From Piscinibacter lacus (GTDB lineage Bacteria > Pseudomonadota > Gammaproteobacteria > Burkholderiales > Burkholderiaceae_C), in NCBI RefSeq assembly GCF_016735685.1, contig NZ_JAERRA010000001.1, positions 992,001 to 1,056,000 of the forward strand: a DNA stretch of 64,000 nt, written 5' to 3'. This document shows, in pieces, positions 2,229 to 62,036 of the stretch (its first letter is position 1; every line of letters starts with the position of its first letter). The translations under genes and the position numbers were made by a program. The notes beneath the pieces are model-generated. The model saw nothing but the letters and a program-made list of their open reading frames with translations. It did no database searches and was not told the origin of the DNA.

Positions 2229-3461
2229 TCAGACCACCTGACCCAGCTTGAAGATCGGCAGGTACATCGCGACGACGATGCCGCCGATGATCGTACCCAG
2301 CACGACGATGATCACCGGTTCCAGCAGGCTGGACAGGGCCTTGACCGCCTCGTCGACTTCCTGCTCGTAGAACTCGGCGGCCTTGCCGAGCATGTGGTCG
2401 AGCGAGCCGGCCTCCTCGCCGATCGCGCTCATCTGCAGCACCATCACCGGGAACACGCCGGTGGCATGCATGGCCGGCGTCAGCGCGGTGCCGGCGGCCA
2501 CTTCGCGCTGGATCTGCTGGGTCGCCTCGCGGTAGACGGCATTGCCCGAGGCCCCGCCGACCGAATCCAGCGCCTCGACCAGCGGCACGCCGGCGGCGAA
2601 CATGGTCGAGAGCGTGCGCGTCCAGCGCGCGATGACCGACTTGGTGACCAGCGGCCCGAAGATCGGCAACTTGAGCAGCAGCCGGTCCATCACCCGCTGC
2701 ATGGCCGGCGAGCGCTTCCAGCTCTGCATGAAGAAGTAGCTGCCGAAGCCCAGCAGGCCGAAGATCAGGTACCAGGATTCGACGAAGACATCGGACATCG
2801 CCATCACCGCCAGCGTCGGCGCCGGCAGGTCGGCGCCGAAGTTGCCGAAGACTTCCTTGAAGGCCGGGATCACGAAGATCATGATCACCGCCACGACCAC
2901 GAAGGCCACCAGCAGCACGGCCAGCGGATAGACCAGGGCCGACTTGATCTTGGCCTGGATGGCGAGCGTCTTCTCCTGGTAGAGCGCGAGACGGTCCATC
3001 AGCGTGTCGAGGATGCCCGCCGCCTCGCCGGCCTCGACCAGGTTGCAGTACAGCGCATCGAAGTGCATCGGATGCTTGCGGAAGGCATCGGACAGGCTGG
3101 TGCCGGTCTCGATGTCGGACTTCAGCTCGGCCAGCAGCTTGCCGACCCGGGGCTTGGCGCTGCCGCGGCCGACGATCTCGAAGCTTTGCAGCAGCGGCAC
3201 GCCGGCGCGCATCATGGTGGCGATCTGGCGGGTGAAGATCGCGATGTCCTTGGCCTTGATGCGACCGCCCTGCGGGCTGCGCCGCCGCCGCAGCTTCTGC
3301 ACCAGGATGCCCTGGCGGCGCAGGCTGACCTGCACGGCCATGTCGCCGATGGCGCGCATCTCGCCGCGCACCAGCTTGCCGCTGCGGTCGCGGCCTTCCC
3401 ATTCGTAGAGGTGGTCCCGCTCCGCGGACTTGCGGGGGGCTGGGCGGGCAAGGGGGGGCAT
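2229..3461 (-). CDS. pilC: Type IV pilus inner-membrane platform protein PilC
   Basis: PilC (GspF family) is the polytopic platform that couples the PilB and PilT ATPases to pilin assembly. The 410-residue protein shows two repeated cytoplasmic GspF domains, each followed by hydrophobic segments (for example LAVLLVAFVVVAVIMIFVIP and, near the C-terminus, IIVVLGTIIGGIVVAMYLPI). Family markers include FTRQIATMMRAGVPLLQSFE in the first repeat and the matching RWTRTLSTMFAAGVPLVEAL in the second. The gene is preceded by pilB with 13 bases between them and followed by pilD. Confidence 0.96.
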   Translation of the reverse strand: MPPLARPAPRKSAERDHLYEWEGRDRSGKLVRGEMRAIGDMAVQVSLRRQGILVQKLRRRRSPQGGRIKAKDIAIFTRQIATMMRAGVPLLQSFEIVGRGSAKPRVGKLLAELKSDIETGTSLSDAFRKHPMHFDALYCNLVEAGEAAGILDTLMDRLALYQEKTLAIQAKIKSALVYPLAVLLVAFVVVAVIMIFVIPAFKEVFGNFGADLPAPTLAVMAMSDVFVESWYLIFGLLGFGSYFFMQSWKRSPAMQRVMDRLLLKLPIFGPLVTKSVIARWTRTLSTMFAAGVPLVEALDSVGGASGNAVYREATQQIQREVAAGTALTPAMHATGVFPVMVLQMSAIGEEAGSLDHMLGKAAEFYEQEVDEAVKALSSLLEPVIIVVLGTIIGGIVVAMYLPIFKLGQVV

Positions 3462-3474
3462 CGCGGCAGACCGG

Positions 3475-5217
<1,743 letters not shown>

Positions 5218-5428
5218 GGCGGGGCGATCATCGACCGTGGTCCCCACGGTGTAAGCCCGGAACAGCACGGGCGCATCCCCCCTGCTTGGCGGCTTGGCAT
5301 GGTCGCCCGGTGGCGGCAGCGGCCATGCGGCAGCGCGGCGCGGGGCCGGAAGGCGGACAAACGGGGGGAAGAATCCATCCGAGCCTTCACAGGCTGTCTC
5401 GGATCGCGTCATCGTCCTGCGATGATAG

Positions 5429-37394: not shown

Positions 37395-38723
37395 TCAGCC
37401 GCGCAGCGCCTCGCCCGCGGCGGCCACGGTGGCGGCGATGTCCCCGGCCGTGTGGGCCGCGCTGACGAAGCCGGCCTCGTAGAGCGCGGGCGCCAGGTAG
37501 ACGCCGCGGTCCAGCATGCCGTGGAAGAAGGCATTGAAGCGCGGGCCGTCGGTGGCCATCACCTCGGTGTAGTTCTGCGGCAGGCCGCCGGGGTGGGCGC
37601 TGAAGTCCTGCTCGGGCTTGGGGAAGAAGAAGCCGAACATGCCGCCTTCGCAGTCGCCGACCATGGGCACGCCGGCCGCGCGGGCCGCGCCCGTCAGGCC
37701 TTCGACCAGCTCGCGCGTGCGCGCCGTCAGCGCCTCGAAGAAGCCCGGGCGCTGGATCAGCTTCAGCGTCGCCAGGCCGCAGGCGGTGGCCACCGGGTTG
37801 CCGCTGAGCGTGCCGGCCTGGTAGACCGGGCCCAGCGGCGCCAGCTTGCCCATCACCTCTTTCGAGCCCGCGAAGGCCGCCAGCGGCATGCCGCCGCCGA
37901 TGACCTTGCCGAAGACGCTCACATCCGGCGCGAAGCCGGGCAGGGCCTTGGCATAGATCGACTGGGCGCTGCCGAGCGCCACGCGGAAGCCGCTCATCAC
38001 CTCGTCGAAGACCAGCAGCGCGCCGTGCTGCGTGCACAGCCGCCGCATGGCCTGCACGAAGGGCAGGCTGGCGCGGACGAAGTTCATGTTGCCGGCGATG
38101 GGCTCGACCATCACGCAGGCGATCTCGGCGCCGTGCGCGGCGAAGGCGGCTTCCAGCGCGGCCACGTCGTTGTAGGGCAGCACGAGGGTGTGCTGCACCA
38201 CCTCGGCCGGCACGCCGGCGCTGGTCGGGAAGCCGAAGGTCGCCAGGCCCGAGCCGGCCTTGACCAGCAGCGCATCGGCATGGCCGTGGTAGCAGCCCTC
38301 GAACTTGATCAGCTTGCTGCGGCCGGTGGCGCCGCGCGCCAGGCGGATGGCGGTCATCGCCGCCTCGGTGCCGCTGGAGACCAGGCGCACCTGCTCGGCG
38401 CTGGGCACGAGCTTGAGGATTTCCTCGGCCAGTTCGATCTCGCGCTCGGTCGGCGCGCCGTAGCTGAAGCCCTCCAGCACGGCGCGCTGCACGGCCTCGA
38501 CCACCTCGGGGTGGCCGTGGCCCAGGATCATCGGACCCCAGGAGCCTATGTAGTCGATGTAGCGCTTGCCGTCGGCGTCGAAGATGTAGGCGCCCTGGGC
38601 CCGCTGGATGAAGCGCGGCGTGCCGCCCACCGCGCGGAAGGCGCGCACGGGCGAGTTCACGCCGCCGGGGATGACGCGCTGGGCGCGTTCGAAGAGTTCG
38701 GTGTTGCGGCTCATCGGATCCAT
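37395..38723 (-). CDS. hemL: Glutamate-1-semialdehyde 2,1-aminomutase
   Basis: HemL makes 5-aminolevulinate from glutamate-1-semialdehyde using PLP, an early step of heme synthesis. The 442-residue product has [70 protein letters not shown] and the PLP-lysine motif [14 protein letters not shown]. Two in-frame ATG codons, at 38723 and 38714, are possible; the second gives the more typical MSRNTEL start. It lies 59 bases downstream of the thiD-like gene on the same strand. Confidence 0.96.
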
Positions 38724-38782
38724 CGGTTCAGAAGGGGCAGCGCGGCCGGTGGCATGCGGCGCCGCCGGCCGGCTGCTCGGTC

Positions 38783-39808
38783 TCAGTGCATGCGGCGCTT
38801 GGGCGGCGGCTCGCCATCGGCCGGCAGGCCGGGGCCTCGTGCGGGGGCAGTGTCTTCGCCCTCGGCCCCGGCTTCGCCTTCGGGGTCTTCCTCGGGCAGG
38901 GCCCAGAAGAAGCGGTCGGGCACGACGCCGCCCATGCCGGGGCGGAAGCCGGCATCGAGCGACTGGTCGAGGAAGTTCAGCGCCTCGCCCACCGCCAGGT
39001 GCAGGTCCTGGCCGGCGGCCAGCAGCGAGGCCAGGGCGGCCGACAGGGTGTCGCCGGCGCCGACGAAGCTGGTGTCGAAGCGCTCGAACTTCTCGCCGGT
39101 GATCGCGCCCTGCGGCGAGGCCAGCACGTTGTCCATCCAGCCTTCGCTGCCGGGCTCGCCGGGCTGGGCGCCGCGGCTGGGCGGCAGCGCGATGCCGGTC
39201 ACCAGCACATAGGGCGTGCCCTTCTCGGCGGCGGCCACGGCCAGTTCGCGGGCCGAGGGCGCGCGCTCGTTGTCCCAGTCGGGCAGCAGCAGCTCGCCCA
39301 GGGCCTGCTGGCTGCCGACCAGCACCTCGGCGGCCGGCAGGATCAGGTCGCGGAAGCTCTCCAGGTAGGCCTGCAAGTCATCCTCGTCATCGAACCAGGT
39401 GATGGCCGGCAGGTGGGCGACCAGGGGCACGTCCGGGTAGTCGCTCAGCACCTCGGCGACAGCCGAGACGCCCTCGGCGCTGCCGAGGAAGCCGACCTTC
39501 CAGGCCGAGATCGTCACGTCCTCCAGGATGCTGCGGGCCTGCTCGACGATGGTGTCGGGCTCCAGGGCCTGGGATTCGAAGACCTCGGCCGTGTCGCGCA
39601 TCAGGATGGCGGTGATCACCGGCAGCGGGTGCGCGCCCATGGCGGTGATGGTCGCGACGTCGCCGCCGCTGCCGCCGGCACCGCTGGCATCGGCGGCGTT
39701 GAAGCTCATCACGCAGGCCGGCGGGGCGTCGGGATCGGTCTCCCCCGGTGCGCCCGGCGCGTCGGGGGCCTCCGGGCTCGGGGGGGCCTCGAACTTGGGT
39801 CGGCTCAT
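38783..39808 (-). CDS. ThiD-like hydroxymethylpyrimidine kinase
   Basis: The 341-residue protein belongs to the ribokinase fold group and is the variant usually called bifunctional hydroxymethylpyrimidine / phosphomethylpyrimidine kinase next to rubredoxin and hemL in Burkholderiales. It shows [19 protein letters not shown] in place of the canonical ThiD start, [11 protein letters not shown], and the catalytic C-terminal motif [16 protein letters not shown]. It diverges strongly from E. coli ThiD: there is a proline-rich N-terminal tail, an acidic DDEDD insertion and an acidic C-terminal tail, so the true substrate should be regarded as open. Start ATG is at 39806-39808. Its leader contains a strong intrinsic terminator. 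Confidence 0.8.
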
Positions 39809-39842
39809 GGTGGACAGCGCGCCACGGGGCGCTTCAGGCAAG

Positions 39843-39956: not shown

Positions 39957-40130
39957 GTGAGCGACCCTCAAACCTGGATGTGCCTGATCTGCGGCTGGAT
40001 GTACGACGAAGCCGCCGGTGACCCCGACCATGGCATTCCCCCCGGCACGCGCTGGGCCGATGTGCCGATGAACTGGGTCTGCCCCGAATGCGGGGCGCGC
40101 AAGGAAGATTTCGAGATGGTCCAGATCTGA
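39957..40130 (+). CDS. Rubredoxin
   Basis: Rubredoxin is a small cytoplasmic iron-cysteine electron carrier. The 57-residue product (GTG start, SDPQTWMCLICGWMYDEAA) has both metal-binding knuckles, CLICG and CPECG, and ends KEDFEMVQI as in other Burkholderiales. The ATG at 39978 would remove seven residues and is less likely. A six-codon reading frame starting at the GTG at 39940 ends in a TGA that overlaps the rubredoxin GTG. In relatives this gene precedes pilG-pilH-pilI-pilJ-pilL; here only divergent pilI/J/L-type genes follow. Confidence 0.93.
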   Translation: MSDPQTWMCLICGWMYDEAAGDPDHGIPPGTRWADVPMNWVCPECGARKEDFEMVQI

Positions 40131-40229
40131 GCGATCTCGGTCCCGCCGCAGCCTGAAGGTGCCGCGGCCCCGCCGGAGCGCGCCCCGCCCGGGCGCCTTC
40201 CTTCCCTCCCCCCGTCCCTCCGCCCGCCC

Positions 40230-40724
40230 ATGAGCGGTTCGCCGCCGTCCGACGCCGTGCCGAATCCGGTCGATGCCCCCTGCTGGCTGGCGGTCGAGGC
40301 CGGTGGCCATGGCCTGCTGCTGCCTGTCGAGCAAGTGACGGCCGTCCACCGCTGGCAGGCGCCGCAGCCCCTGCCCTGGGGGCTGGCGACGGCCTGGCTG
40401 GGCCTCGTCGAGCTGGACGGCCAAGCCTGCCTGGGGCTGGACCTGGGCGCCTGGCTGGGCGGCCCGCCGCTGGCCGGCCGGGTGGCCGAGCCGGTCTGGC
40501 TGAGCCTGCGGGCGGCCGGCTCCGACGCGCGCTGTGCCTGGGCGCTGGACCGCGTGGCGGGCCTGCGCAGCGCCCCTGAGCTGCCCCTGGCCGCGCAGGC
40601 CGCACCCGGCCCCTGGCCGCCCTTTGCCGGCCCCTGCCATCGCGATGCCCAGGGCCGCGGCTGGCAGGTGATCTGGCCCGAACGCATGCTGACCGACCCC
40701 CGCTACCTGGAGATCGCCGCGTGA
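40230..40724 (+). CDS. Divergent CheW-like (PilI-type) protein
   Basis: The 164-residue product resembles a single CheW domain. It has the expected beta-rich pattern: CWLAVEAGGHGLLLPVEQV, then WLGLVELDGQACLGLDLGAWL, which aligns with the GxxxLRGxxxPVxDLxxxLG core of CheW proteins, then a strand pair WLSLRAAGSDARCAWALDRV. The arginine and proline of the conserved LRG..IPV stretch are replaced (LDG..CLG). CheW proteins link receptors to CheA. Position after rubredoxin and before a PilJ-like gene supports a PilI origin. The 99 bases before it contain no response regulator gene. Its stop overlaps the next start (GTGA). Confidence 0.65.
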   Translation: MSGSPPSDAVPNPVDAPCWLAVEAGGHGLLLPVEQVTAVHRWQAPQPLPWGLATAWLGLVELDGQACLGLDLGAWLGGPPLAGRVAEPVWLSLRAAGSDARCAWALDRVAGLRSAPELPLAAQAAPGPWPPFAGPCHRDAQGRGWQVIWPERMLTDPRYLEIAA

Positions 40725-42460
40725 GCGAGCGTACGTCCCCCGCCGCAAGCCCGGGCATCCGTCGCCTGCCGCCGCCGCCGCGTCGCGCCCCGCGGCGCTT
40801 CTTCATGGGCCTGGCCGCCCTGGGCCTGATCGGCCTGCTGCTCTGCGCGGCCTTCGCGCTCAAGGGCCTGAACCTGCATGCCGACCTGCGGGTCGGCCTG
40901 GCCGAGTTGAGCGGCCGGGCCGAGGCCCTGCGCCTGCGCGTCGAGCGCGGCGAGGAAGAGGCCGCGCGGGCGGCCCTGGCCGAGCTGGGCCAGACCCTGG
41001 ACCCGCTGCTGCGCCTGGGCCTGCGCGGCCCGCAGGCCCAGGCGCTGGAGCGCCTGCGCGGCCGCGCCGACCGGCTCTTTCCCGTGGCGCAAGCCGCGTC
41101 CGCCCCCGCCGTGCAGGCCGAGCCGGCGGCCTCCGATCCGCCGGCCGAGGCAGCCGCTGCCCCGGCACCGGCCAGCGGCGAGGCCGCCGCCAGCAGCCCG
41201 CTTGAGCCGCCGGCCCGCGTCGCCGAGACCAGCCCCCCGCCCGCCCGCGCCGAAGCGGCCTTGCCGCCTGCGCGGTCCATGGCGGACTTCCTCGCCGTGC
41301 TGCGCGCCGAGCGCTTGCGTGTGGAGGCCATGCCGCCGCTGCCCTCCGAGCTGCTGGCGCTGGCCCTGATCTCGTTGCTGCTCGTGCTGGGCGGCCTGGG
41401 CGGCCGCGGCGCCGCCATCGGCCGCGAGCAGACCGAGCGGGCCGACCGTGCCGAGGCCTTGCAGGTCGAAGCCGAGGACCGCGCCCTGGCCCTGCGCCAG
41501 TCCGCCCATGAAAACGATCTGGCCCTGCGCCGCCTGGCGCCGCTGCTTCAGGCCCTGGGTGAGGGCGACCTGAGCCGGGTTCCGCCCCGAGAAACCGAAG
41601 ACCTGGCCAGCCGCCATGGGGCCCTGCTGGGCGAGGCCCTGGCCGAGCTGCGCCACCTGATCGCCCAGGTGCAGGAGGCGGCCGAGCGCGTGCTGCAGGG
41701 CCAGAGCCGCCTTCAGGCTGCGGTGGGCGGCTTGAAGGCGGGCGCCGACGAGCTGCACGCACTGCGCGCGGCGCAGGCCGCGCTGCATGCCCTGGACGGC
41801 CCGCTTGCCGCCCTGGGCGGCCCGGCCCGGGCCCTGCGCGAGTTGGTCCAGGCCTGGCCCGACACCCTGGCCGCCCTGCGTGCCCTGCTGGCGCGGCAGC
41901 AGGCGGCGGGCGAGCCGGCGCAGGCCCTGGTCCTGGCCCTGGAGGGTCTGCACGCCAGGCTGCAAGTGCTTCAGGCCGACCAGCAGGCGCTGAACGACTG
42001 GCGGGCCGAGGCCGGCCGGCTGGGCCTGAACGCCGCCCTGCAGATGGCCCAAGCCGCCGGGCGCCCTCCGGCCGCCCTGGCCCAGGACCTGCTCGAGGCC
42101 CTGGGCCGGGCCGACCGCCTGCTGCAACCCTGGCTGGACGCCCGCTCGGCCTTGAGCGCGCAAGTCGAGGCCCAGCTCGACCTGGCCCGCCGCCAGGCCC
42201 GCGCCCTGGGCGCCGAGCTGCCGGCGGACTTGCAGGCCCGGCTGCTCGCCAGCGAGGCCCTGGTCGCCGGCCTGCCCACCGATCTGGCCGAAGCCGCCAG
42301 CCCGGCGCAGCTTGAGCCGCTGCGCGAGGCCCTGGCCCGCAGCCTGCACGGCGCCGAGGCCCGCCAAGCCGAGCTGGACCAGGGCCTGCGCCTGATCCAG
42401 GACCTGGCCACCCAGGCTGAAGGCCTGCGGGCCGCAGTGACCCGCTTCCGGGCCCCCTGA
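40721..42460 (+). CDS. Divergent PilJ-like chemoreceptor with degraded signalling tip
   Basis: The 579-residue protein starts at a GTG overlapping the previous stop. It has two membrane segments (about residues 28-48 and 210-230), an extracytoplasmic part with a helical stretch and an alanine/proline-rich linker, and a long helical cytoplasmic domain. Residues 424-470 (LNDWRAEAGRLGLNAALQMA and onward) align with the receptor hairpin tip whose consensus is NxLALNAAIxAAxAGExGRGFAVVA: LGLNAAL is kept but AGE-GRGF is replaced by AAGRPPAAL. It is about 100 residues shorter than Pseudomonas PilJ (682). Likely a receptor that no longer controls a kinase in the usual way. Confidence 0.6.
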   Translation: MSERTSPAASPGIRRLPPPPRRAPRRFFMGLAALGLIGLLLCAAFALKGLNLHADLRVGLAELSGRAEALRLRVERGEEEAARAALAELGQTLDPLLRLGLRGPQAQALERLRGRADRLFPVAQAASAPAVQAEPAASDPPAEAAAAPAPASGEAAASSPLEPPARVAETSPPPARAEAALPPARSMADFLAVLRAERLRVEAMPPLPSELLALALISLLLVLGGLGGRGAAIGREQTERADRAEALQVEAEDRALALRQSAHENDLALRRLAPLLQALGEGDLSRVPPRETEDLASRHGALLGEALAELRHLIAQVQEAAERVLQGQSRLQAAVGGLKAGADELHALRAAQAALHALDGPLAALGGPARALRELVQAWPDTLAALRALLARQQAAGEPAQALVLALEGLHARLQVLQADQQALNDWRAEAGRLGLNAALQMAQAAGRPPAALAQDLLEALGRADRLLQPWLDARSALSAQVEAQLDLARRQARALGAELPADLQARLLASEALVAGLPTDLAEAASPAQLEPLREALARSLHGAEARQAELDQGLRLIQDLATQAEGLRAAVTRFRAP

Positions 42461-42480: not shown

Positions 42481-45400
42481 ATGATTCCCCGCCCCCCTGG
42501 CCTGCGCAGCCCGGAAGGTCACGAGCTTCAACAGGCGCTCGAACCGCTGTTCGAGCGCCTGCACGATCTGCTGGCCGGCTCGCTCGCCGGGCTCGACCCG
42601 GTCGAAGCGGCCTTGCTCTCGGCTGCCTTCGCCGAGCATGTGCAGCCCCTGCGCGAAGCGGGTGTTCCGGTGGCGGCCCGGCTGCTGGCCCTCCTGCCGC
42701 CCCTGCTCGACCCGGGCCTGCCGGCCGAGGCCCTGCCGCGCGCGGCCATGCAGCGCCTGGCCGAAGCCATCGACACTGGCTTGCTGCGCGAGGCGGCGGG
42801 CGACCCGCCGGCCAGCATCTGGCCGGCACTGGCCGAGGACGCGCTGCTGCGCGAGCTGCTGGCCCGCGCCGGCCAGGCCCTGCCCAGCCCGGCCGAATGG
42901 TGGTGCCCGCCGGAATCGGCCGATTGGCAGGCCCTGCCGACCCCCGCCGCAGCCCGGCCCCTGAAGCTGGATGCGACCACCTTGCAGGCCTTCGAGACGG
43001 CCGTGCTCGACGGCCTGCACCCCGGTGGCGCCCGCGCCGCGGCGGCCCCGCAGCGCTTGCAGGCCCTGTGTGCCGGCCTGGCCGCCGCCGCGCCCGAAGC
43101 GGCGGTGGGAAGCTGGCGCATGGCGGCCGCCACGATCGAGGCCGAGCGCTGCGGCCTGCTGGCGCCCGAAGCCCTGCCGCCGCGCCTGCCCTCGCGCCTG
43201 CTGTCGCAACTGCGCGCGGCGCTGCGCGGCCAGGGCGACACCGCGCCCGTGCCGGCCCTGCCGCCGGCCCTGGCCATCGAGCTGGGCTGGGCCTGCGTCA
43301 GCGCGGCCGATCCGCTGGGCGATGAGGCGCCCGAGCTTCAGGCCCTGCGCCGCGCGGCCGGCTGGTTGCCCTGGCACCCGGCCTTCCGGCCCTTGCCGAC
43401 GATCCGGTCGGTGGCCGACTGGCTGCCGGCCGAGGCGCTCGACCTTCCCGCCCTGGCGCCGCAGGATGCCGCGGACGGCGACGCCTGGCCGGACGACACC
43501 CTGCCCATGCCGCTGGCCGAGGCCCCGGCCTTCGCCCCGGCCGTCGCACCCGCGCCGTCGGCCTGGGCCGAGGTGGACCTGGGCTTCGACCCCGAGCCCG
43601 AAGCCCCTGCCGAGTCGGACGAGGCGCTGGACGAGGCACTGCTCAAGCCCCTGCCGCGCGCTGCCGCGCTGCCGCCGCCCGCCTTCGGCTCGGCCTTGCC
43701 TGAGCTGAGCCTGGACCTGTCCGACCCGCTGCCCGAGGCGCAGGCCGAGCCGCCGGTGCCCCCGGCCGTCGCCGAGCCCCTGCCGGTCGCCCCGACGGCC
43801 GACGCGCCGCCGCCCGAAGCGCCGCAGGATGCGCCGCCCGAGGCGCTGGACGACGCGCCGAACCACGCACCGCCCGCGGCCCCAGCCGAAGCGCCGAATG
43901 ACGCACTGCCCCAGGCCCCGGACGAAGCGCCGCCCCAGGCGCCGGACGATGCCGAAGCCCACCGCCAGATCGGCCCGCTGCGCCTGCCCATCGTCCGCTT
44001 CAACCAGTTCCTGCATGAGGCGGACGAATCCTCGCGCCGGCTGAACATGGCCCTGGCCGAGTGGGCCCATGCCGGCTGCGGGGCGCCGGGCGAGGAGGCT
44101 TTGCTGGCCGCCCGGCAGCTCGCCGACGAATCGGCCGCCCTGGGCCTGGACGAGCTGGCCGGCCTGGCCGCGCAACTGCTGGCCCTGGGCAGGCAGCTCG
44201 CCAGCCTGCCCGCCGACCGGGCCGGGCCGCGCGCCGAAGCCCTGGGCACGCCGGCCTTGCTGGTCGAGGCCGGCGAGCAGCTTCGCCATCTGCTGCATCA
44301 GTTCGCGGCCGGCTTCCTGCGCCATCCGCCGGCCGAGATGCGCGAGCGGCTGGACCGGCATCTCGCCGAGCTGCAAGCGCCCCTGCCGCCTGAGCTGCCG
44401 GCGGCCGAGGCCGGCCCCTCGGCCGAGGCGGGCGCTGTCTCTGCGGTCGAAGTGCGCCAGGACTGGATCGACTGGCCTACCTGGGCGGCCCGGGCCGGCA
44501 CGCCGCAGCCCGCGGCCCCGGCCCTGGGTGCGGCACCCGCGCACGGCCCCCTGCTTGCCCTGGCGGCGCCCTTCGATGGCGTCGCCGCCGCCACCCAGGC
44601 CCTGGCGGCGGCCCAGCGGCAACTGGCCGGGCTGCTGGCCGGGCCGGGCTCGGTCCTGGATCCCGCCTTGCGCCAGCCGATCCAAGCCGCCTTGCAAGCC
44701 AGTCAGCGCGCCCTGCACGCCCAGGCCGGTGCGATCGAGCGCCTGGAGCAGGCCCTGGACACCGCCCGTCGCATGCCCTTCGCCGAATGGGCCGAGGCCT
44801 TGCGCGCGCCGGTCGAGGCCGCGGCCCAGGCCCTGGGCAAGCCGATGCGCTTCAGCATCGACGGCGGATCGGACCGGGTCGAGCCCCAGGCCCTGGCCCG
44901 CTGGCAAGCTTGGGTCCAGCGCCTGCTGCTGCAAGCGCTGGAGACCGGCCTCGAAGCGCCCCTGGTGCGTGCAGCCGCCGGCAAGCCGCCGGTCGGCACG
45001 GTGCTGCTGAGCTGGAGCCGCCGCGGCGCGCACGAGGCCGAGCTGATGGTGGGCGACGACGGCGCCGGCCTGCCCGATCCGGCGCTTGACGCCCTGGCCG
45101 ACCCGATCCGGGCCCTGGGCCTGAGCCTGCATGTCGAGACCCTGCGCGGCGCCGGCCGCCGCATGACGCTGCGCGGGCCTTGCAGCTTGCCGACCGGGCC
45201 CTGGCTGGGCCTGCGCCTGGCGGGCGGGTTGCGGCTGGCGCTGCCCGCGGACCGGATGTCAGCGGCCCAGGATGCCGTGCCGGCCGCCTGGCGCCTGCTT
45301 GCCTCGGGCTGCCCGCTGATGTGGCAGGGGCGGCGGCTGCCGGCCCTGGGCCTGGGCGAGGTGGTCCCGGCGGACCGGCTGACGCTTCCCGATCGGCCGC

Positions 45401-45609
45401 AGATGCTGGCCGTGCAGGCCCCGGTCGGCGAGGGCCTGCTGGCCCTGGAGGTCGCGCCGGTGGCGGTGCAGGCCCTGCAGCAGCCGCTGCCGGCGGGGCT
45501 GTCGCGCTGGCCCGAGGCCCTGGGCCTGGGCCGCGATGCCGAGGGCGGCCTGTGGCTGCGGCTCGACCCCGCCGCCATGCGGCGGCTGGATCAGCCCCCG
45601 CCGGCGTAA
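42481..45609 (+). CDS. CheA/PilL-like protein lacking phosphotransfer residues
   Basis: The 1042-residue protein has a large helical N-terminal part, a long proline/alanine/glutamate linker (about residues 360-500), an Hpt-like bundle starting LPIVRFNQFLHEADESSRRL (502 on), an ATPase-like segment and a CheW-like C-terminus (about 905 on). The Hpt motif of PilL, AHSLAGSS, reads AARQLADES here, putting Arg545 at the phospho-His position. In the ATPase region WVQRLLLQALETGLE (811-825) keeps the frame of the N-box but has Gln and Thr for the Asn and His; DDGAGLP (859-865) keeps the G1 box, and the following F/G2 region (GRGVGMDVV in CheA) is missing. No receiver domain follows. Probably catalytically dead. 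Confidence 0.6.
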   Translation: MIPRPPGLRSPEGHELQQALEPLFERLHDLLAGSLAGLDPVEAALLSAAFAEHVQPLREAGVPVAARLLALLPPLLDPGLPAEALPRAAMQRLAEAIDTGLLREAAGDPPASIWPALAEDALLRELLARAGQALPSPAEWWCPPESADWQALPTPAAARPLKLDATTLQAFETAVLDGLHPGGARAAAAPQRLQALCAGLAAAAPEAAVGSWRMAAATIEAERCGLLAPEALPPRLPSRLLSQLRAALRGQGDTAPVPALPPALAIELGWACVSAADPLGDEAPELQALRRAAGWLPWHPAFRPLPTIRSVADWLPAEALDLPALAPQDAADGDAWPDDTLPMPLAEAPAFAPAVAPAPSAWAEVDLGFDPEPEAPAESDEALDEALLKPLPRAAALPPPAFGSALPELSLDLSDPLPEAQAEPPVPPAVAEPLPVAPTADAPPPEAPQDAPPEALDDAPNHAPPAAPAEAPNDALPQAPDEAPPQAPDDAEAHRQIGPLRLPIVRFNQFLHEADESSRRLNMALAEWAHAGCGAPGEEALLAARQLADESAALGLDELAGLAAQLLALGRQLASLPADRAGPRAEALGTPALLVEAGEQLRHLLHQFAAGFLRHPPAEMRERLDRHLAELQAPLPPELPAAEAGPSAEAGAVSAVEVRQDWIDWPTWAARAGTPQPAAPALGAAPAHGPLLALAAPFDGVAAATQALAAAQRQLAGLLAGPGSVLDPALRQPIQAALQASQRALHAQAGAIERLEQALDTARRMPFAEWAEALRAPVEAAAQALGKPMRFSIDGGSDRVEPQALARWQAWVQRLLLQALETGLEAPLVRAAAGKPPVGTVLLSWSRRGAHEAELMVGDDGAGLPDPALDALADPIRALGLSLHVETLRGAGRRMTLRGPCSLPTGPWLGLRLAGGLRLALPADRMSAAQDAVPAAWRLLASGCPLMWQGRRLPALGLGEVVPADRLTLPDRPQMLAVQAPVGEGLLALEVAPVAVQALQQPLPAGLSRWPEALGLGRDAEGGLWLRLDPAAMRRLDQPPPA

Positions 45610-59458: not shown

Positions 59459-60364
59459 TCAGGCGATGCCCTTGGCCCGGTGGATTTCCTCGATGGCCCG
59501 CCGCTTGCCGACCAGCAGCGCGCGCATCTGGTAGGCGCGCAGGAAGCGGCGGAACTCAGGGTCCTCGTAGCGCGGCTTGCCGGCAAGCGCGCTGCGCAGC
59601 CAGCCCCAGATCACGGCCAGGCTGCCCAGCAGGAAGGGCTTCTCACCGATCCGGCTCAGCGCGCTGGCGCTGAGGTAGAGCAGGCCGGTGCCCATGAAGT
59701 ACTGGCCGAAGCCGTGGCGCATGCGGCCGGTGTAGATGCTCTGCTGGCTGGACCCCATCGGCCGCAGGTGGATGAAGCGAAGCTCCGGTTCATTCCAACT
59801 GCAGGCGATCCAGCCCTTCATCCGGCAACGGTGGCAGTCGATGCCGTCCCACATCACCTCGCGCACGAAGCCGCCGATGTCCTTGAAAGCGCTGACGCGG
59901 TAGAACTTGGTCATGCCCAGCGAGGTCTCGTCGCCGTGGTTCTCGTCGCGCAGCGTGCCGTGTTCCTCGACATAGGCCTTGCCGCTGCAGGTGGCGATGC
60001 GCGGATTCGCCTCCATGCGCTCGACCAGGATCTCGAAGTAGCGCAGCGGCAGGCGCAGGTCCAGGTCGAGCTTGCAGACGTAATCGAAGTCCTCCGGCAC
60101 GATGGTTTCGTAGCCGGCGTAGAAAGCCTCGATCACCCCGGGGCCGACGGCGCGACGGCCTCGGTCCTGGCGGGTGACGATGCGGATCCAGGGATGGCGC
60201 GCGGCGTACTCGGCCAGGATCTGTGGCGTCTCGTCACTTGAACCGTCGTCGACGATCACCCAGAGCGCCGGCGTGAGCGACTGCCCGACCACGGTGTCCA
60301 GGGTCTGCCGCATGTACTTGGATTCATTGCGGCAGGGCGAAATCAGGGCATAGCGGCGGCTCAT
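59459..60364 (-). CDS. Family 2 glycosyltransferase
   Basis: The 301-residue protein has a GT-A fold: YALISPCRNESKYMRQTLDT and VIVDDGSSDETPQIL at the N-terminus, then KLDLDLRLPLRYFE as the DxD metal site, and the acceptor-side segment GFVREVMWDGIDCHRCRMKG. Near the C-terminus a hydrophobic stretch (FLLGSLAVIWGWLRSAL) suggests membrane association. Such enzymes make surface polysaccharides or glycolipids. The GT4 gene ends 25 bases upstream on the same strand, so the pair likely works together. Confidence 0.88.
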   Translation of the reverse strand: MSRRYALISPCRNESKYMRQTLDTVVGQSLTPALWVIVDDGSSDETPQILAEYAARHPWIRIVTRQDRGRRAVGPGVIEAFYAGYETIVPEDFDYVCKLDLDLRLPLRYFEILVERMEANPRIATCSGKAYVEEHGTLRDENHGDETSLGMTKFYRVSAFKDIGGFVREVMWDGIDCHRCRMKGWIACSWNEPELRFIHLRPMGSSQQSIYTGRMRHGFGQYFMGTGLLYLSASALSRIGEKPFLLGSLAVIWGWLRSALAGKPRYEDPEFRRFLRAYQMRALLVGKRRAIEEIHRAKGIA

Positions 60365-60389
60365 GGGGGGGCGTCCTGTGGATCAAGGT

Positions 60390-61646
60390 TCAGCCGTGCC
60401 GGGGCAGCGCGAAGGCGGCCAGCAGGCGGTCGATGTTTTGGGCCATGCCGAACTCGGCCATCACATGCTGGCAGCCGTCCCGGCCCAACTGCGCACGCAG
60501 TGCGTCGGAATCGATCAGGCGCGCGATCTGCCGCGCCAGGTCGGCCGCGTCGGCCGGTTCGGCCAGCAGGCCGCTTTGCTCGTGCATGACCAGCTCGGGA
60601 ATGCCCGAAAGCCGGGTCGAAACCACCGGCAACGACTGCGACATGGCCTCCATCAGCACGACGGGGATGCCGTCCATGTCGCCGTTGCGGTCTTCCTTGC
60701 AGGCCAGCACGAAGCTGTCGAGCGCGTTCATCCAGTCGGCCACCTGCTCGTGCGAGAGGCTGCCGTCGAAGCGCACGGCCTCGCCCAGGCCGAGGGCAGC
60801 CGCCTGGGCCTCCAGCGCCGGCCGCAGCGGGCCGTCGCCGGCCAGGCGCAGGACGACGGCTCGACCCTCGGCGCGCAGCCGCGCAAGCGTCTCGATCAGC
60901 ACGTCGAAGCCCTTCTTCTCGACCATGCGTCCCAGCGAGCCCAGCACGAAGGGCTGGCCGGCGGCACCTGCCGGCCGCGACCGCGGGCTGAAACTCACGC
61001 CGCAGCGCACCAGGCTCAGTTGTGCCGGGGGAATGCCGAGCGCGCGCAAATACTTCAGGTTGTGCTCGGAAATCGTCAGGAAGCGCTTGGCGCGCGCTGC
61101 CTTGCGCTGCAGCAGCAAGCCCCGCTCGAAGATGTCGTTGGCATGCGCTGTCACCGTGAAGGGAAGCCCGGACAGCGCCGCGGCATACATCGCAATCTGC
61201 GCCGGGACATGCGCGAAGTGCACGTGGAGGTGGTGACAGCCCTCGTCTTGCATCAGCCGAGCCAGACGGGCACCGGCCAGGAACTGGTAGGCCAGCTTCC
61301 AACTGGCCGGCTTGAGCAGGCCGCAGGCCACGAGATCGCCCGCCAGTTGCCCGAGCGCGCCGAACAGGCCTGGGCCAAAGCGCGGCAGGCTCAGCAAAGC
61401 GCCCAGGGCGAACCGGGCGGGGTGGGTGTCGTACAGAACACGGACCCGCTCGCTCAGGCGGGCCTGGTCGGCAGCCGGGCGCGCCGGCCGGTGCACGGAA
61501 ATGGGCACAACGCGCAGGCCGCGCCGCTCCACCGCGTGAAGTTCCTCGTAAACAAAGGTGGCGGAGAGCGAGGGAATCTCGGGCGCGAGATAAGCGACGA
61601 CCTGCTTCAATTCGGTAGCGACAGGGCAGGAGGGGGAGGACACCAT
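60390..61646 (-). CDS. Family 4 glycosyltransferase
   Basis: The 418-residue protein has a GT-B fold with N-terminal VVAYLAPEIPSLSATFVYEE, HVHFAHVPAQIAMYAAALSG, TAHANDIF, and the C-terminal donor domain with LGRMVEKKGFDVLIETLA, LAGDGPLRPAL and the E-x7-E region IPVVLMEAMSQSLPVVSTRL. These features fit retaining sugar transferases of capsule or exopolysaccharide synthesis. ATG at 61644-61646 is used; GGGGGAGG-type purines lie on the coding strand only weakly, so the start is less certain. It is divergent from the response regulator gene. Confidence 0.88.
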   Translation of the reverse strand: MVSSPSCPVATELKQVVAYLAPEIPSLSATFVYEELHAVERRGLRVVPISVHRPARPAADQARLSERVRVLYDTHPARFALGALLSLPRFGPGLFGALGQLAGDLVACGLLKPASWKLAYQFLAGARLARLMQDEGCHHLHVHFAHVPAQIAMYAAALSGLPFTVTAHANDIFERGLLLQRKAARAKRFLTISEHNLKYLRALGIPPAQLSLVRCGVSFSPRSRPAGAAGQPFVLGSLGRMVEKKGFDVLIETLARLRAEGRAVVLRLAGDGPLRPALEAQAAALGLGEAVRFDGSLSHEQVADWMNALDSFVLACKEDRNGDMDGIPVVLMEAMSQSLPVVSTRLSGIPELVMHEQSGLLAEPADAADLARQIARLIDSDALRAQLGRDGCQHVMAEFGMAQNIDRLLAAFALPRHG

Positions 61647-62036
61647 GGTGACTCGGTCTGTTTCTGCCTGACACGCATGTGCTGGACACGGGGCATGGCC
61701 GGACCCGGAAGCGGCTTGCAGGCCCACGCCCGCTTGGCATGTCATTCGTCGGTCCGTGCAAACCCTCGGGCGATGGTAGCTTGACCGCATTCGGCGTTCG
61801 GTGGGATCCGCAGGCGGGTCGACCTGCGACCCGCACAAGCGTGCCGGATGCAGCACATCACATGCCACCACGGGGCCCACGCCGCTTCGGCAGCCCTTGG
61901 GCCCATGCGACCCGGCCCTGGCCACCCAGCCAGGTCGCAGGCTTGCAAGCGGTTGACGCCCCGGTCCCGGGCCGCCGCAAGGCCGGCTTGGGACCGGGAG
62001 GGCGCTGCTAGAGTGCCGGCTCCCTCACGCGCCCGA
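61647..62036. other. Divergent region between GT4 and response regulator genes
   Basis: This 390-base stretch contains an inverted repeat, CCCGGTCCC at 61960-61968 and GGGACCGGG at 61990-61998, upstream of the regulator, and a weak promoter-like pair TTGGGA / TAGAGT around 61989-62014 on the plus strand. I see no gene, RNA or terminator in it. Codon-like bias is absent compared with the flanking genes. Confidence 0.45.

Follow-up and report, generated by a model that had tools for sequence, protein, structure and literature searches.

Within a 64,000-nucleotide stretch of the Piscinibacter lacus genome (the window; NCBI RefSeq assembly GCF_016735685.1, contig NZ_JAERRA010000001.1, positions 992,001 to 1,056,000), an open reading frame (ORF) of the plus strand that starts with ATG (42481..45606; stop codon 45607-45609) encodes a protein of 1,042 amino acids. 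Its translation and its profile matches to full-length relatives identify it as a reduced, kinase-dead ChpA, the pilus-class CheA, which sits in the ancestral Chp locus. An earlier note, made from the window alone, had described a CheA/PilL-like protein without its phosphotransfer residues. The losses go further than that: pilG and pilH are undetectable both in the window genome (3.03 Mb) and in Aquariibacter albus SJAQ100 (G001), the only sampled genome of the same genus, and PilJ has no MCP signalling tip. The chpA gene is nevertheless under purifying selection, not neutral decay. We favour, with moderate confidence, the reading that the protein is a phosphorelay-free, FimL-like ChpA scaffold for type IV pili, kept by selection together with PilI and PilJ.

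A ChpA stripped of its phosphotransfer sites

We compared the window protein (P0001) with seven full-length ChpA proteins of the same family, taken as mechanical ORFs of 1,934-2,254 amino acids, and with two orthologues from beyond the window. One of these (P0003) shares 99.3% identity with its A. albus counterpart; the other (P0004), a record of 590 amino acids without most of the N-terminal half, is 82% identical to that counterpart over the last 542 residues. A genome scan for related loci returned A. albus alone.

Three regions align to full-length ChpA by profile-profile comparison: residues ~1-310 (96.0% probability), ~490-640 (99.6%) and ~700-1042 (98.4%). The N-terminal domain (residues ~15-297; 42523..43371, plus strand like all parts of this frame) is homologous to the ChpA N terminus, the part that resembles FimL, and its residues 39-291 match the ChpA N terminus of one relative (G061) by tblastn at E 4.9e-17. 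An Hpt-like (Xpt) bundle follows (residues ~490-630; 43948..44370), with a block of the form FNxFLxEADExSRRL, and the nearly invariant columns of an alignment of 23 proteins lie in this bundle. Domain models recover less. A Pfam scan at E<=1 gave no Hpt, HATPase_c, CheW or receiver match in the window protein, and all four in one full-length relative (G002). The best CheA matches in NCBIfam (E 9.9e-7) and in the PDB (E 6.7e-6) are confined to residues 765-865 and 754-868, respectively.

The alignment with full-length ChpA bears out the residues that the note had singled out. Where the full-length proteins carry the phospho-accepting His of A-H-[SA]-L-A-G (S-H-S-L-A-G in G002), the window protein has Arg545 (44113..44115). 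Its N box (44932..44946) reads LLLQALETG in place of LLRNxxxHG, so that Asn has become Gln818 and the N-box His has become Thr822; the His of the H box is replaced too. The G1 box, DDGAGLP, is kept (residues 859-865; 45055..45075). Directly after it, at about 45076..45087, a gap of ~47 residues removes the ATP lid, the F box (GFSTA; GLSTA in G026) and the G2 box (GRG[IV]GMD), of which the note had recognized the last. The protein ends in a divergent CheW-like (P5) domain (residues ~906-1042; 45196..45606), also claimed in the note. Alignment to full-length ChpA continues through this domain, although the match is weak and falls under Pfam detection. It is followed by neither a VDDS motif nor a Pfam receiver.

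These changes are shared. Arg545, Gln818 and the deletion are common to the window protein, P0003 and P0004, and the three have the same C terminus; residue 822 is Thr in the window protein and Glu in the other two. The motifs H[TS]x[KA]G, LLRN, GRGxGMD and VDDS each occur in 7/7 full-length ChpA proteins and in 0/3 of the reduced ones, whereas DDGAGL is present in 7/7 and 3/3. Neither motif count nor alignment found an intact Hpt His or G2 box elsewhere in the window protein; H[TS]x[KA]G is absent from its whole length, so the sequence description in the note stands. A loose Hpt-like DNA pattern was no commoner in the window than expected by chance.

The Chp locus without PilG and PilH

The loci of the seven relatives with full-length ChpA were compared with the window, and pilG and pilH could be read directly in six of them (G002, G003, G005, G018, G026 and G060); the locus of the seventh (G007) is cut by a contig end. 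The order in relatives is hemL-thiD-rubredoxin-pilG-pilH-pilI-pilJ-chpA. A motif search placed rubredoxin beside pilG in five of the six (not G005), and hemL lies inside five of the six locus stretches (not G018). In the window pilI, pilJ and chpA remain collinear, and the conserved flanks and order show descent from the Chp locus. Rubredoxin, identified by Pfam, marks its left side (39966..40127, plus strand, putative start). A 99-base-pair gap (40131..40229, plus strand) takes the place of pilG and pilH, and the distance from the rubredoxin stop codon to pilI is 98 base pairs in A. albus.

Queries with the PilG and PilH proteins of G002 found matches of 81-99% and 70-100% identity, respectively, in all six full-length-ChpA relatives (G002 itself included). 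The window most likely comes from a second species of Aquariibacter, a genus that NCBI places in the family Sphaerotilaceae. Neither genome of the Aquariibacter pair (the window genome and A. albus) yielded an orthologue-grade match; the matches at E<=1e-10 were 27-39% identical (at most 37% for PilG and 39% for PilH). In a survey of 120 genomes at a threshold of E<=1e-35, PilG was found in 61 of 72 family members, the window genome counted. Among the 11 without it, G007 and G010 are possible assembly gaps and are not counted as losses. G007 has a ChpA frame of 1,934 amino acids and its contig ends just past pilJ, so an assembly gap is likely; in G010, a genome that is 89% complete, the ChpA frame is open (2315) and an assembly gap is presumed.

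The remaining partners are themselves altered. PilI, a CheW-like linker (40230..40721, plus strand), is weakly recognizable (Pfam CheW, 28.6 bits against a cut-off of 23.5), and its A. albus counterpart falls under the cut-off at 17.4 bits. PilJ (40721..42457, plus strand; 579 amino acids) is degenerate in alignment with seven PilJ proteins. Its signalling tip, EQTNVLALNAAIQAASAGEAGRGF in 7/7 aligned PilJ, reads AEAGRLGLNAALQMAQAAGRPP in the window; the periplasmic part is much shorter than in the seven relatives; and two hydrophobic stretches (judged by eye) lie in the N-terminal half. The C-terminal RF motif is kept. There is no MCPsignal match at pilJ, yet each Aquariibacter genome gives seven such matches at E<=0.1, at six distinct places. 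With the PilJ tip lost and neither PilG nor PilH detected, the phosphorelay is missing in its entirety, not kinase activity alone. FimV and three above-cut-off PilT-family matches are present in the window genome. A P0001 search of that genome at E<=0.001 found only P0001 itself; elsewhere it carries a cluster of a 756-amino-acid CheA-like frame, a CheW and a methyl-accepting chemotaxis protein (MCP), and further MCPs as well.

Judging by the shared losses, the phosphotransfer sites, pilG, pilH and the PilJ tip most likely disappeared before the sampled lineages diverged.

Selection on the reduced gene

The non-synonymous to synonymous ratio (dN/dS, here omega; NG86, bootstrapped 300-fold) was calculated between the window species and A. 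albus. It is 0.43 (0.37-0.50) for chpA, 0.68 (0.57-0.85) for pilJ and 0.43 (0.29-0.66) for pilI. The flanking genes hemL, thiD, trmL and coxB range from 0.04 to 0.16, and the 54 codons of rubredoxin show zero replacements between the two species; chpA evolves far faster than its neighbours. Within chpA, omega is lowest at residues 1-60 (0.22) and 181-240 (0.25) and highest at 701-765 (0.82).

Neutral evolution was simulated from the window chpA, with equilibrium GC set to three values and kappa to two, and with 30 runs each. Mean omega was 1.07-1.49 and the lowest single run reached 0.89, so that every run lies above the observed value. Identity between the species is 60%, against neutral means of 20-25%, and mean internal stops numbered 2.6-16.5, against none observed. 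Since Arg545, Gln818 and the deletion are common to the window protein, P0003 and P0004, the divergence measured here probably postdates the phosphotransfer losses. The earlier note had offered erosion that keeps its frame as one explanation; in its simple form this does not agree with purifying selection acting after the shared losses.

ChpA remnants in other genomes

Comparable remnants adjoin hemL in two other genomes. In G027, which we call Brachymonas-like because the protein in question shares 86% identity with one from Brachymonas denitrificans, the sole P0001 match is a protein of 582 amino acids (L055:6759-8507) whose Xpt domain is missing the His; the genome has no PilG or PilH match. 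Of 34 database proteins found with it, 32 are 73-100% identical, itself included. In G066, a genome without a PilG match, an ORF of 418 amino acids (L088:3911-5167) holds the ChpA N-terminal domain only. Both resemble the window protein as hemL-adjacent ChpA remnants with no phospho-His motif and no PilG match. They differ from it in that a kinase core and a CheW-like part were not seen in them, and no PilI or PilJ match was found within the G027 and G066 stretches compared. The Xpt domain is shared between the Aquariibacter and G027 proteins (97.3% in profile comparison), and their N termini are linked through full-length ChpA, which each of them matches.

A HemL tree of ten rows has one supported split (100/99), which sets Aquariibacter, G018 and G060 against G027, G066, G002, G003, G005 and G026; the other forks, except that of the Aquariibacter pair, are unresolved. 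As G018, G060, G002, G003, G005 and G026 all carry full-length ChpA, this single-gene split implies at least two independent ChpA reductions, provided that ChpA was not regained. Two database proteins, P0008 (610 amino acids) and P0023 (689 amino acids), combine the ChpA N terminus with an Xpt domain that has Gln at the His site, and are possibly further FimL-like reductions.

A remnant is not always kept: the G027 protein found no match in G023, G025, G038, G039 or G052, all without PilG. A diverged remnant may be overlooked by such searches, because the G027 query missed the window genome and P0001 missed G066. Weak P0001 matches occur in G025 (4.8e-4) and G039 (6.0e-7). An apparent chpA with four internal stops in G052 was rejected as an ordinary CheA ORF matched across frames.

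A proposed scaffold without a phosphorelay, and the alternatives

Known relatives offer partial precedents. FimL, as in Pseudomonas aeruginosa, is a homologue of the ChpA N terminus in which Gln occupies the two putative acceptor sites; it interacts with FimV, which it connects to PilG (PMC3019171, PMC10519157 and PMC9596432). From those descriptions, FimL of Pseudomonas and Acinetobacter resembles the window protein in its ChpA N-terminal homology, its replaced acceptor His and, if our reading holds, its role as a pilus-associated scaffold. It differs as a separate protein that stands beside ChpA and PilG, whereas the window protein is the ChpA orthologue itself and keeps remnants of the kinase core and the CheW-like domain. 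No NCBIfam model named FimL matched. A survey of CheA finds the four core domains in every homologue that it covers, and Hpt domains that lack the His and have no assigned role; it also describes Rhodobacter sphaeroides CheA3, with an internal non-functional kinase domain, as half of a split pair with CheA4 (PMC10782961). Like the window protein, CheA3 combines a kinase domain that does not function with Hpt domains that lack the His, but it retains one working Hpt and has CheA4 as its kinase, whereas the window protein has no recognizable phosphorylation site. ChpA/PilL itself is matched in locus, pilI-pilJ-chpA order, N-terminal domain, Xpt bundle, remnant ATPase and CheW-like domain. The window protein, however, is about half its length and lacks the phospho-His, the N, F and G2 boxes and the receiver, and the searches detected neither PilG nor PilH. 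Our search of the literature on degenerate or pseudokinase CheA and on Pil-Chp loss in Burkholderiales, which left most subscription papers outside, found no account of this case among the records listed.

The protein descends from the Pil-Chp kinase ChpA of the genus; its phosphotransfer sites, together with pilG, pilH and the PilJ tip, were probably lost early. We propose that what remained (the FimL-like N-terminal domain, one Xpt bundle without its His, the N-terminal half of the ATPase domain with the G1 box, and the CheW-like domain) has been kept as a scaffold that binds other proteins. Its most likely place is with PilI and membrane-bound PilJ, at sites marked by FimV. There it could position or hold parts of the type IV pilus without phosphorylation, in the manner of FimL beside ChpA in Pseudomonas. 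We infer this role, the partners FimV, PilI and PilJ and any pilus phenotype from sequence comparison. The proposal draws support from synteny, the shared losses, an omega below neutral, the retention of PilI, PilJ, FimV, PilB and PilT-family proteins, the parallels in G027 and G066 and the FimL precedent. The scaffold suggested in the earlier note fits, but its coupling of a working receptor to CheW is improbable now that the PilJ tip and PilG and PilH are seen to be lost.

Several observations weigh against this proposal. The DNA comparison rests on two species only. At 90% equilibrium GC some neutral chpA runs stayed free of stops, so the open frame is not decisive; with these runs, a GC content of ~71% and an antisense ORF of 1,053 amino acids overlapping the locus, an open frame by itself is weak evidence. 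Among 51 window ORFs picked by a codon-position GC rule, 47 have a proper A. albus match (three have none and one a partial match, 27%), and pilJ (46%) and chpA (55%) are the least conserved of the 47, with pilI fifth lowest and most others at 85-99%; this ranking fits slow, incomplete decay as well. Gaps in the nucleotide alignment that are not multiples of three (6/13 in chpA, 7/11 in pilJ and 0/2 in pilI) suggest that local frame slips may be tolerated in chpA and pilJ, and synonymous divergence (dS) is also raised across the pilI-pilJ-chpA cluster. The N termini of the Aquariibacter and G027 proteins compare at 0.2% in hhalign, and the G027 query (P0025) had no match in the window genome (G000). 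FimL of Pseudomonas and Acinetobacter is tied to PilG, which was not found in Aquariibacter.

The conservation ranking and the gaps would suit a decaying locus, in which Chp function is lost, the three genes are drifting out and residual constraint acts only against toxic or misfolded products. The high omega of pilJ and of chpA residues 701-765 points the same way. We nonetheless regard such decay as unlikely, though a serious contender, as chpA stays below every neutral run in omega and far above the neutral means in identity, conserved blocks remain in the N terminus, the Xpt bundle and the surroundings of G1, and the three reduced proteins share a C terminus. Fast change could alternatively be adaptation to a non-pilus partner, such as another CheA/CheW system or another membrane process. 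The second CheW cluster and the further MCPs would supply candidates, and divergence is raised in pilI, pilJ and chpA alike. That cluster, however, has its own CheW, the receptor tip and the CheW/P5 parts are degenerate, and the retained operon order, FimV and PilB point to pili; we consider repurposing of this kind improbable.

It is very doubtful that the protein still works in phosphotransfer, through non-canonical residues or another CheA in trans. Nucleotide contact is conceivable because the G1 motif is kept in all three reduced proteins, and CheA3/CheA4 offers a precedent for split pairs. The N, F and G2 boxes, all H[TS]x[KA]G sites and the receiver are gone, however, and neither PilG nor PilH could be detected. 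Long spurious ORFs are frequent in the window, which might suggest an artefact of GC-rich sequence or of assembly. That reading is refuted almost beyond doubt by the A. albus orthologue, which in an independent assembly runs full length from start to stop, is 60% identical and has a gene-like codon-position pattern.

If the protein is indeed a phosphorelay-free scaffold, a ChpA maintained without recognizable phosphotransfer chemistry would be a natural experiment that parts scaffolding from signalling, and the G027 and G066 remnants single out the same ChpA N-terminal domain as the part of interest. More tentatively, and with rather less confidence than in the scaffold itself, we suggest that the N-terminal and Xpt domains of ChpA may do a selectable, phosphorylation-independent pilus job that outlives the kinase and its regulators. 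FimL-like scaffolds could then have arisen repeatedly by the stripping of ChpA, and Aquariibacter could represent an intermediate in which PilI-PilJ-ChpA has turned into a non-signalling assembly.

Other features of the window

Two type IV pilus genes lie on the minus strand near the start of the window. PilB, the extension ATPase (3478..5412), matches TIGR02538 with 793 bits (cut-off 675.65); beside it, a pilus platform protein of the PilC/GspF type (2232..3461) matches PilC and GspF models of NCBIfam with E values of 1e-104 to 1e-117, none of them reaching the cut-off of its model.

The minus strand also carries two glycosyltransferase-like ORFs (59459-61925) that have no match in the A. albus stretches compared. 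The A. albus contig stops shortly past the gene that precedes them, so the non-match is uninformative on absence.

Between the two species (window positions 37395-39841 compared with L049), dS is only 0.15-0.18 for hemL and thiD, whereas trmL and coxB, at the opposite side, reach 0.34-0.37; recombination or codon-usage constraint is a possible cause of this contrast.

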